This document shows, one piece after another, positions 1 through 7,340 of a stretch of DNA of 33,915 bases (positions are counted from its first letter, which is position 1; the number at the start of each line of letters is the position of its first letter). The DNA comes from Chloroflexota bacterium (GTDB lineage: Bacteria; Chloroflexota; Dormibacteria; Dormibacterales; Dormibacteraceae). The stretch lies in contig VBHA01000166.1 in the NCBI GenBank assembly GCA_005889495.1, positions 1 through 33,915 on the forward strand, read 5' to 3'. The translations under genes and the position numbers were made by a program. The notes below the pieces were generated by a model, which had not been told where the DNA came from, did no database searches, and worked only from the letters and a program-made list of their open reading frames with translations.

Positions 1-388
1 AGATGTTGATCTCGAATCCCGCGACGCCGGGCACCCCGTCGAGCATGGCCGCCAGCTCGCCGTACTCCGCGGCGGACTCGCCGTTGATGTTCACCAGCAC
101 CGGGAAGTCCCACTCGGCCCACCTGGGCGCGTAGTCGCGGATGAGCACCTCCGAGCCCGGGCCCTGGAGGCCGATGGCGTTGAGCATGCCGCTGGGCGTC
201 TCGGCAATCCGCGGTGGCGGGGTGCCTTCGCGAGCCCGGAGGAAGATGCCCTTCGACACCATCGCGCCGAGCGCGCGGCGCTCGAGCAGCGGCACCTCCG
301 TGCCGTACCCGAACGTCCCCGACGCAGCCAGCACGGGGCCACGCAGCTCGAGCCCGCCGATGTCGACCGACATGTTCGGCGCGGTCAA
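1..388 (-). CDS. pyrD: Dihydroorotate dehydrogenase, class 1B catalytic subunit (partial, runs off window start)
   Basis: Reverse-strand translation reads MSVDIGGLELRGPVLAASGTFGYGTEVPLLERR...AEWDFPVLVNINGESAAEYGELAAMLDGVPGVAGFEINI, typical of PyrD. Candidate TTG start at 388 overlaps the pyrK stop (TTGA); alternative ATG at 373. Confidence 0.88.
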   Translation of the reverse strand, partial: MTAPNMSVDIGGLELRGPVLAASGTFGYGTEVPLLERRALGAMVSKGIFLRAREGTPPPRIAETPSGMLNAIGLQGPGSEVLIRDYAPRWAEWDFPVLVNINGESAAEYGELAAMLDGVPGVAGFEINI

Positions 389-1123
389 GCGCCCACCCCA
401 TAAGGGAGATGCGCGGGGAGGACGGTCCAGTCGATGTCCGCCGCGCGGTAGACAGGGCCTTCCTTGCACGCACGGTCGTAGCCGCCTGCGCGCAGCGGAA
501 CCGCGCAGCCCAGGCAGACGCCCGTGCCGCAGCCCATGTAAGTCTCGACCGCGACCTGCGCGTCCGGCCAGCGCTCCGCCGCGGCCGCGAGCATCCGGTT
601 GGGCCCGCACACAACGATGGCGCCCGATGTGGGCGCGGCCGCGACAGCGGTGCCGTGGAAACCCCGGGAGCCATCGTCGGTCGCCCAGACGACGACTTCG
701 CCCTCGGCCTCTGTGCACAGCTCGGCGGCGGTCCTCGCGCCGTGGACCCACGTCACCTTCATGCCGGCGGCATGGGCGTCGCGGGCGGCGAGCGGCATGG
801 GAGCCACGCCCAGGCCCCCGCTCACGAGGATTGCATGAGGGCCGCTCAAATCGAAACCATGCCCCAGCGGGCCGAGGCAGCTCACGCGATCGCCCGGCCG
901 GAGCCCGAGCAGCTGCGCGGTCCCGACCCCGACCGCTTTCAAGACGACTTCGATCGTCTCGCCTTCAGCGCGGTAGACCGAGAAGGGACGGCGCAGCAGC
1001 GGACCTCTGGGCCAGGCCAGGTTGACGAACTGGCCGGCGCGAACGATTGCGGCGATCTCGGGCGCATGCATGCCGACGATGAACATGCCCCGCGCGACCT
1101 CGCGCCGGCCCGTGACCGGCGCG

Positions 1124-1137
<14 letters not shown>
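385..1137 (-). CDS. pyrK: Dihydroorotate dehydrogenase electron-transfer subunit
   Basis: 250 aa ORF; FAD-binding [15 protein letters not shown], and C-terminal Cys cluster CGTGVCLGC...C typical of the PyrK [2Fe-2S] site; adjacent to pyrD. Confidence 0.92.
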
Positions 1138-5438
<4,301 letters not shown>

Positions 5439-5449
<11 letters not shown>

Positions 5450-5975
5450 CGATCACCGCCTGGTCGATTCCGTCCTCTTCGGCCACCAGCACCTCGATGC
5501 GCTCGCCCTCGGCGGTGGGCACGTTCTTGCCCACGTAGTCCGGCCGGATGGGGAGCTCGCGGTGGCCGCGGTCGACCAGGACCGCGAGCTGGATGGCCCT
5601 CGGGCGGCCGAAGTCCATCAGGGCATCCATGGCCGCGCGGGCGGTGCGGCCGTGGTGGATCACGTCGTCGACGAGCACCACCACCTTGCCGCGAATCTCG
5701 GGCATGTCGCTCGTGGGACGGCGCGAGGCCGGCCGCGAGTCGAGGTCGTCTCGATGCATGGTCACGTCGAGCCGGCCGAAAGGCACGGGTGCGTGCTCGA
5801 GCTGCGTGAGCGTCGTAGCCAGCCTCTGCGCCAGCACGTCGCCTTTGCTGACGATGCCCACGAGCACGACGTCGCCGACACCCCGGTTGCGCTCGACGAT
5901 CTCATGCGCGATCCGGGACAGCGACCGGCGCATCTGGTCCGCATCCATGACGGTCGCCTTGAGGACTGTGCTCAT
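5439..5975 (-). CDS. pyrR: Bifunctional pyr operon RNA-binding regulator / uracil phosphoribosyltransferase
   Basis: 178 aa; PRPP motif [56 protein letters not shown] overlaps the pyrB stop (ATGA). Confidence 0.93.
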
Positions 5976-6898
5976 GTCAGCAACCGATCCAGGAGGGCCA
6001 TGCGGATGTGCAGTCCGTTGCGTGCCTGGCGGAAGTAGGCCGCGCGCGGGTCCGCGTCGACCTCGGGGGCGATCTCGTCCACACGCGGCAGCGGGTGCAT
6101 CAGAATCGCGTACTTGCGCATTCGGGCGAGAGCGGCGCCGTCGATTCGGTACACACCCTTCAGTGCGTTGTAGACCTCGGGGTCCGCGAAGCGCTCCTTC
6201 TGGATGCGGGTCATGTAGACGACGTCGACGTCGGGCAGCACCGAATCCAGGTCCGCGGTCTCGACCCATGGAACATGGTGCTCGTCCAGGTGCGCCTTCA
6301 GGTCGTCGCGCATGGCGACCTGAGGCGGGGCGACAAACCAGACTTTGACGTCCTTGAACTTGCTGAGCAGGTAGGTGAGGGAGCGGACCGTGCGCCCGTT
6401 GGCGAGGTCGCCGACCAGCGCGACGCGGACGCCGTCGATCCGGCCGAGCTCGTCGCGAATCGTGTACAGGTCGAGCAGCGCCTGCGTCGGATGCTGGCCG
6501 GGCCCGTCCCCGGCGTTGATCACGGGGACGCCGCTGACCGCGGCCGCGCGCCTGGCCGCGCCCTCTTCGCTGTGGCGGAGCACGATCACGTCCGCGTATC
6601 CGCTGACGATCCGGATCGTGTCCTCGAGCGTCTCGCCCTTGGCGGCCGACGAGAACTCGCGCGCGTTGTCGGTCCCCATGGTCTGGCCGCCCAGCCGAAG
6701 CATCGCCGCCTCGAAGGACAGGCGGGTTCGCGTCGAGGGTTCGTAGAAGAGGGCCGCCATCACCTGGCCGGCCATGCGGCCGATGAAGCGCTGGGGCTCG
6801 CGCTTGATCTCGTCAGCGCGCGCGATCAGGTCTTCGAGCAGGGCGCGCGAGAACTGTTGACTCTCGATCACGTGGTGCAGCCGCGACGTGACGGCCAT
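5972..6898 (-). CDS. pyrB: Aspartate carbamoyltransferase catalytic subunit
   Basis: 308 aa; FYEPSTRTRLSFEAAM, GDGPGQHPTQALLDLYTI, MHPLPRVDEI. SD AAGGAG 8 nt before ATG. Confidence 0.96.
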   Translation of the reverse strand: MAVTSRLHHVIESQQFSRALLEDLIARADEIKREPQRFIGRMAGQVMAALFYEPSTRTRLSFEAAMLRLGGQTMGTDNAREFSSAAKGETLEDTIRIVSGYADVIVLRHSEEGAARRAAAVSGVPVINAGDGPGQHPTQALLDLYTIRDELGRIDGVRVALVGDLANGRTVRSLTYLLSKFKDVKVWFVAPPQVAMRDDLKAHLDEHHVPWVETADLDSVLPDVDVVYMTRIQKERFADPEVYNALKGVYRIDGAALARMRKYAILMHPLPRVDEIAPEVDADPRAAYFRQARNGLHIRMALLDRLLT

Positions 6899-6906
6899 GA
6901 AAAAAT

Positions 6907-6931
6907 CTCCTTCCCTGGCTCTCTGGCCAGG
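6907..6931 (-). promoter_or_regulatory. Candidate PyrR-binding RNA hairpin abutting the pyrB Shine-Dalgarno
   Basis: Minus-strand RNA 5'-CCUGGC-CAGAGA-GCCAGG-GAAGGAG: 6-bp stem (6914-6919/6926-6931), hexaloop CAGAGA fitting the CNGNGA PyrR-loop pattern, core CCAGAGAG identical to the Bacillus-type binding loop core; SD begins 1 nt after the stem. Confidence 0.65.
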
Positions 6932-6974
6932 ACTTAAAGGCGAGCTCCGCGGAGTTTACCGTAACTTAGGCCGG

Positions 6975-7340
6975 ATGAACAGGCGACCGGGACACGTCAA
7001 CGTCACGACCGAGGTCGGCTTCTGCAACTTCTGCAGCCGCACCCGCAACCTTCGCAGCGAGGAGCACCAGCTGGGCCAGCTCGTGCGCACGATCGTGACC
7101 TGCGAAACCTGCCACCGCACCCTGTCGAGCACGATCGGGGTGGCCGCGACTCCTGAACCGGTCGAAGAGGAGGCACCGGCCGCAAAGCCTTCGCTGGAGG
7201 CTGAGCCGGAGGCCGCTCCCAAGCCAAAGCGTGCCCCGGCCAAGAAACAGACGAAGGCCGCCGCGGCCGCAAAGCCCAAACCCAGGACGCCGGCGAAGCC
7301 AAGGTCGACGGCCACGAGGCACACGACCCGGAAAAAGTGA
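6975..7340 (+). CDS. Small Zn-ribbon-like protein with Ala/Lys/Pro-rich basic tail
   Basis: MNRRPGHVNVTTEVGFCNFCSRTRNLRSEEHQLGQLVRTIVTCETCHRTL (two CxxC) followed by PKPKRAPAKKQTKAAAAAKPKPRTPAKPRS...TTRKK. Start is my choice; the ORF is open from 6888. Confidence 0.65.
   Translation: MNRRPGHVNVTTEVGFCNFCSRTRNLRSEEHQLGQLVRTIVTCETCHRTLSSTIGVAATPEPVEEEAPAAKPSLEAEPEAAPKPKRAPAKKQTKAAAAAKPKPRTPAKPRSTATRHTTRKK

Follow-up and report, generated by a model that had tools for sequence, protein, structure and literature searches.

A predicted PyrR binding loop over the pyrB ribosome-binding site of an uncultured Dormibacterota bacterium points to translational control of the pyr operon

Two modes of PyrR-dependent control are the closest described precedents for the locus treated here. 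In classical attenuation of the Bacillus type the PyrR binding loop serves as an anti-antiterminator and is accompanied by a separate antiterminator and a terminator. The pyr operon of Mycobacterium smegmatis, in turn, is reportedly controlled by PyrR-dependent translational repression. We analyzed 33,915 nt from the genome of an uncultured soil bacterium of the Dormibacteraceae (assembly GCA_005889495.1, contig VBHA01000166.1, positions 1 to 33,915), a stretch that is called the window throughout. Its minus strand carries a pyrB-pyrR-carAB-pyrK operon whose leader would consist of a bare PyrR binding loop with the Shine-Dalgarno (SD) sequence inside the lower stem. PyrR-dependent translational repression of pyrB via this SD-masking loop is, as judged from sequence and in our view with high probability, the best explanation of the arrangement.

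Between the pyrB start at 6898 and the divergent gene from 6975 the minus-strand gap measures 76 nt, and it reads CCUUUAAGU-CCUGGC-CAGAGA-GCCAGG-GAAGGAG-AUUUUUUC-AUG (Table 1). A first-pass annotation of this DNA had described the hairpin CCTGGC (6931-6926), CAGAGA (6925-6920) and GCCAGG (6919-6914), the SD and its spacing to the ATG, exactly as they stand on the minus strand. Following GAAGGAG (6913-6907) the spacer is ATTTTTTC, then comes the ATG at 6898-6896; the GGAG core of the SD ends 8 nt from this ATG, and 10 nt separate the loop from the AUG. The annotation had also placed the hairpin so as to mask the ribosome-binding site, which is borne out and was even understated, as the lower stem had been missed: CCUU (6940-6937) pairs with AAGG (6912-6909), and the true 5' limit of the element lies at about 6940-6944. 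Since the lower stem takes its 3' arm from the SD itself (CCUU:AAGG), the ribosome-binding site of pyrB would be masked directly, and occlusion of the first ribosome-binding site of a pyr operon is a feature that marks the Mycobacterium type. Both stems are present in the predicted fold of 6906-6944 (-15.4 kcal/mol). Three traits of a PyrR loop are found, namely a CNGNGA hexaloop closed by a stem (here CAGAGA on 6 bp, with an invariant core), two stems split by a 5' internal-loop strand (Rfam alignment, fold and upper-stem covariation at 6/6 pairs) and a PyrR encoded in the genome, in this case by the second gene of the operon.

Table 1. Coordinates of the operon and of the predicted elements in front of pyrB
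Feature	Position	Strand	Evidence
pyrB, aspartate carbamoyltransferase, 308 aa	5972..6898	-	Pfam; NCBIfam TIGR00670 above cut-off
pyrR, 178 aa, ATGA overlap with pyrB stop	5439..5975	-	NCBIfam NF003549; solved structures
carAB, carbamoyl-phosphate synthase small plus large subunit, one 1441-aa ORF, overlaps pyrR end	1124..5449	-	TIGR01368 and TIGR01369 in one ORF
pyrK-like electron transfer subunit, overlaps carAB end	385..1137	-	Pfam PF10418; NCBIfam matches below cut-off
Whole predicted PyrR binding loop over pyrB ribosome-binding site	6907..6944	-	Rfam RF00515, covariation
Lower stem 5' arm CCUU	6937..6940	-	CCUU invariant in 24/24 f1 leaders
5' internal-loop strand UAAGU (5' strand of the element, UUUAAGU)	6936-6932	-	UAA invariant, 24/24 f1 leaders
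Upper stem 5' arm CCUGGC	6926..6931	-	Compensatory changes, 6/6 pairs, 24 leaders
Terminal hexaloop CAGAGA (consensus CNGNGA)	6920..6925	-	C, G, G, A invariant, 24 aligned leaders
Upper stem 3' arm GCCAGG	6914..6919	-	Covariation
Shine-Dalgarno GAAGGAG	6907..6913	-	Sequence; AAGGAG invariant in f1; fold
Lower stem 3' arm, AAGG of the SD	6912-6909	-	Sequence, fold
T6 run in the SD-ATG spacer, possible terminator U-tract	6900..6905	-	Rarity of SD-T6-RTG
-10-like hexamer TAAACT	6953..6958	-	Similar hexamers in f1/f3 leaders; inference

The hairpin had been taken for a PyrR-type loop on account of its letters, and this assignment is now backed by a family model, by covariation and by recurrence in other phyla. 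At the gathering threshold an Rfam search gave no match anywhere in the window. The covariance-model check that the first-pass annotation had proposed finds 6900-6944 as a match to RF00515 (PyrR) that scores 30.4 bits where the gathering threshold demands 54 (E 0.017 when 321 nt were compared with 4227 families). This low score goes with the length of the model, which continues beyond the loop as far as a U-rich tail: 71 of its 115 positions, situated between the loop and the closing U-run, are skipped in the short leader. Throughout the 2.73-Mb genome it is the sole RF00515 match at E<=10 (E 0.035), a test that is independent of the relatives' sequences. In the window's own genome a separate family model gave two more weak matches, one to an apparent citramalate synthase attenuator with 18.9 bits and another with E 9. 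Folding energy is uninformative (z -0.18 for an 86-nt stretch, z -1.58 for the 39-nt hairpin by itself), and because it is unremarkable the case rests on motif and covariation. The bare loop motif CCNGNGAGG was discarded as evidence, since hundreds of matches in this GC-rich genome make it useless alone. The hairpin at the pyrB start almost certainly holds the predicted PyrR binding site.

Within the class, we searched 100 relatives for PyrB and examined the leaders of 84 loci; four families (f1 to f4) are distinguished, f1 being that of the window. The gene pyrR directly follows pyrB at every one of the 84 loci. In f1 and f3 the loop lies on the SD and ends 7-10 nt ahead of the start codon. 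A loop that was not conserved in related leaders would have spoken against the first-pass annotation, but alignment of the relatives' pyrB leaders finds it conserved. All six pairs of the upper stem show both-sided changes among 24 distinct f1 leaders, and on five measures this covariation beats 500 of 500 shuffles (0/500 reach it); the values are tip counts on related sequences, and in a slid control, which preserves the relatedness, shifting the partner by 1-3 columns lowers the paired cells from 96% to 41-65%. The loop core does not vary across the same 24 leaders, nor do AAGGAG and the UUUAA strand, and since the lower stem is invariant too, its pairing draws solely on conservation and the fold. 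At L027-L033 and L035, loci of some f1 genera, a 7-nt terminal loop C(A/C)NGAGA replaces CNGNGA, and the PyrR of these loci is ~77% identical to that of the window. Of 54 f1/f3 leaders, 38 have a -10-like hexamer of the TANACT type 10-19 nt 5' of the loop, and 50 have one no more than 41 nt away; a consensus promoter scan called no complete sigma-70 site at the pyrB leader. Transcription probably begins near the loop.

The regulator belongs to the same operon, as had been claimed, and is a PyrR equivalog by NCBIfam (NF003549, 218.8 bits against a cut-off of 138) which aligns over its full length to solved PyrR structures (down to 1e-56). It keeps Arg19, His22, Arg27, RGHRELPIR and the GKN region, which we take to be the RNA-binding residues of the Bacillus subtilis protein, and Ser takes the place of the B. 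subtilis Thr18 in the alignment, a conservative change. The CarA-CarB fusion also occurs in relatives of all four families, and in some f2 genomes the two parts are matched apart. The divergent ORF (6975-7340, plus strand, 121 aa) has a low-complexity tail and CxxC pairs that by eye resemble a zinc ribbon, and it has no NCBIfam match.

A different geometry is found in f2 and f4, whose leaders rely on another SD and have the loop 55-90 nt 5' of the AUG. In g21, a genus of f4, GGCAAGG of the 3' arm is able to base-pair with CCUUGCC further downstream; outside this pairing CCUUGCC would act together with CCUCCUC against the SD GAGGAGG. We folded f2 and f4 leaders with the loop forced or blocked and with the spacer shuffled (60 shuffles). 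In six of the seven g21 leaders (L069, L072, L073, L075, L231 and L232, with the loop ~56 nt upstream of the AUG) the predicted SD opening was 0.00-0.04 when the loop was forced and rose to 0.39-0.80 when it was blocked, a change that 0-1 of the 60 spacer shuffles reached, and the seventh, L078, showed no switch behavior in this test. For g21 a three-part translational switch composed of PyrR loop, anti-sequestrator and SD sequestrator is therefore predicted from the folds. Some support for a switch was also obtained at L055, L058, L061 and L074. Its extension to all long f2 and f4 leaders was rejected, as the switch is clear only in g21 and most of the others, including most of f2, give no sign of it.

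We propose that at high UMP or UTP levels PyrR would bind the window leader and lock the loop, by which the AAGG of the SD would be held in the lower stem and the 30S subunit could not initiate at pyrB. Each downstream gene begins within the end of the one before it (ATGA and similar), and for this reason the block probably reaches the whole operon by coupling. PyrR itself would then be repressed as well, and an autoregulatory feedback loop would result. If pyrimidines are low, PyrR would leave, the weak lower stem would open and translation would begin, which makes translation the presumed regulated step. Constrained folding of 50 leaders gave a mean predicted SD opening of 0.17 with the loop forced vs 0.48 with its 5' half blocked, where the upper-stem constraint was mis-set in many leaders and that on the lower stem applied to every one. 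In the same test the window SD is predicted to be mostly hidden without PyrR (open fraction 0.22), and the added effect of PyrR is not obvious from the energies, since the isolated hairpin is already stable at -15.4 kcal/mol.

Translational repression had been preferred over classical attenuation from the outset, and the comparison favors the same choice. An attenuator of the Bacillus type would share the binding loop and the regulator with the window, but it is extremely improbable here given the 10 nt from loop to start codon, the -10-like hexamer 12 nt upstream and the lack of a competing sequence or of a separate terminator in 6800-7100. No antiterminator that could compete with the loop was found in the pyrB leader, and there is little room for one, because the hexamer lies so close and the divergent gene begins at 6975. 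That the hairpin hides the SD independently of PyrR, or resembles a PyrR loop by chance, would agree with the moderate Rfam score and the unremarkable folding z-score; we consider it very unlikely, however, as the loop letters and the unpaired UAA are invariant while the paired bases covary, and as in many genomes the motif is found ahead of pyr genes that are accompanied by pyrR.

The statement of the first-pass annotation that no terminator/antiterminator pair is present holds for the competing antiterminator, but not entirely for the terminator: since U6 directly follows, the pyrB hairpin could itself terminate transcription in f1. The PyrR-stabilized hairpin, closing at A6906 before U6, might also or even mainly act as an intrinsic terminator, and PyrR would then both end transcription and hide the SD, a possibility that we rate as unlikely, if of some weight. 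It gains from the predicted fold of 6906-6944, which ends at the U6 run, from the nearly pure T spacer of f1 (a run of >=5 in 34/40 leaders) and from the rarity of SD-T6-RTG, which occurs only twice in the genome, at the pyrB and citramalate synthase leaders, and ~0-3 times in each relative, the reversed pattern being nearly absent. On the other hand, the U-run is absent from two f1 genera (L034, L036, L037), from all f3 leaders and from Actinomycetota with the same loop, the lower stem beside it is short, bulged and has a 4-nt internal loop, and the consensus scan calls no terminator. Termination at U6 could occur, yet for the window leader it remains the minority reading. Distinctly unlikely is the joint proposal that the PyrR-bound loop hides the SD and forms with U6 a PyrR-dependent intrinsic terminator, with sister lineages rewired to the distant three-part translational switch. 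In f3 and in Actinomycetota the loop likewise sits on the SD, but the U-run is lacking. This suggests that translation is the shared mechanism, and PyrR-dependent translational repression stays our preferred explanation for the window.

The second SD-T6-RTG site belongs to the leader of a citramalate synthase gene (TIGR00977; G000:C126, locus L244, 1420-1537). This leader encodes a conserved Ile-containing leader peptide (MRYDRAIGIEITRGGPPT), and it can fold into a possible antiterminator (-36.2 kcal/mol) or, across the SD, into a strong terminator (-23.7 kcal/mol, z -6), which has the SD as its 3' arm and runs into U7 and then AUG. The leader has no Rfam match. By its anatomy it is an apparent isoleucine attenuator of the textbook kind, and it occurs in many relatives. 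On this analogy the pyrB hairpin with its U6 might likewise end transcription.

Beyond the class, 85k genomes were scanned with the pattern CTTTAAGNC-N5-CNGNGA-N5-G-N-AAGGAG, which fixes one of the six upper pairs. At least 80 loci match in loop, flank and SD; those among the matches listed are mostly from Actinomycetota, plus Dormibacterota, with a few from Nitrospirota, Synergistales, Ktedonobacterales and Peptococcaceae. Among the matches listed, 5-6 of the 6 upper pairs are complementary in 80/80 and PyrR lies downstream in 72/80; of the remaining 8, several are truncated because the sequence breaks off, and L090, L100, L109 and L142 have downstream sequence with no PyrR match. A phylum-wide raw tally under strict filters amounts to 94 of 400 genomes, a number on which we place no weight. 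The RF00515 cut-off detects 0 of 18 loci with an SD-masking loop, mostly of Actinomycetota, and because it misses this type, pyr regulation is under-annotated in Dormibacterota and Actinomycetota. A search of the open-licence literature found no paper on PyrR together with Dormibacter. PyrR-dependent translational control is hereby predicted to extend to uncultured Dormibacterota. The class holds two arrangements of one site, which sits directly on the SD in the first and, in the second, well upstream in combination with a predicted switch; it thereby offers a natural series for how an RNA site moves between control modes.

With the B. subtilis attenuator (RF00515) the window leader shares two stems, a 5' strand of the UUUAA type and the CNGNGA hexaloop. 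It differs in that the loop is placed at the SD, that it scores below the Rfam gathering threshold and that the competing antiterminator and separate downstream terminator of the Bacillus type are both missing. The likeness to M. smegmatis is closer, comprising a PyrR loop in a short leader without antiterminator at the first ribosome-binding site of a PyrR-encoding operon. A leader of the Mycobacterium type has no terminator, and in the window no separate one is seen, but U6 adjoins the hairpin. In contrast to M. smegmatis, the window operon begins with pyrB instead of pyrR, its SD is followed by a U6 run ahead of the AUG, and its control is a prediction from sequence. Loops of Actinomycetota (Cellulomonas, Streptomyces, Actinomadura and others) have in common with it the pattern CCTTTAAG-N-C...CNGNGA...G-N-AAGGAG, a complementary upper stem over the SD and a PyrR downstream, whereas theirs precede pyrR and have a spacer without U-run. 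The predicted SD-masking loop of PyrR type proves to be old and widespread, recurring across much of Actinomycetota.
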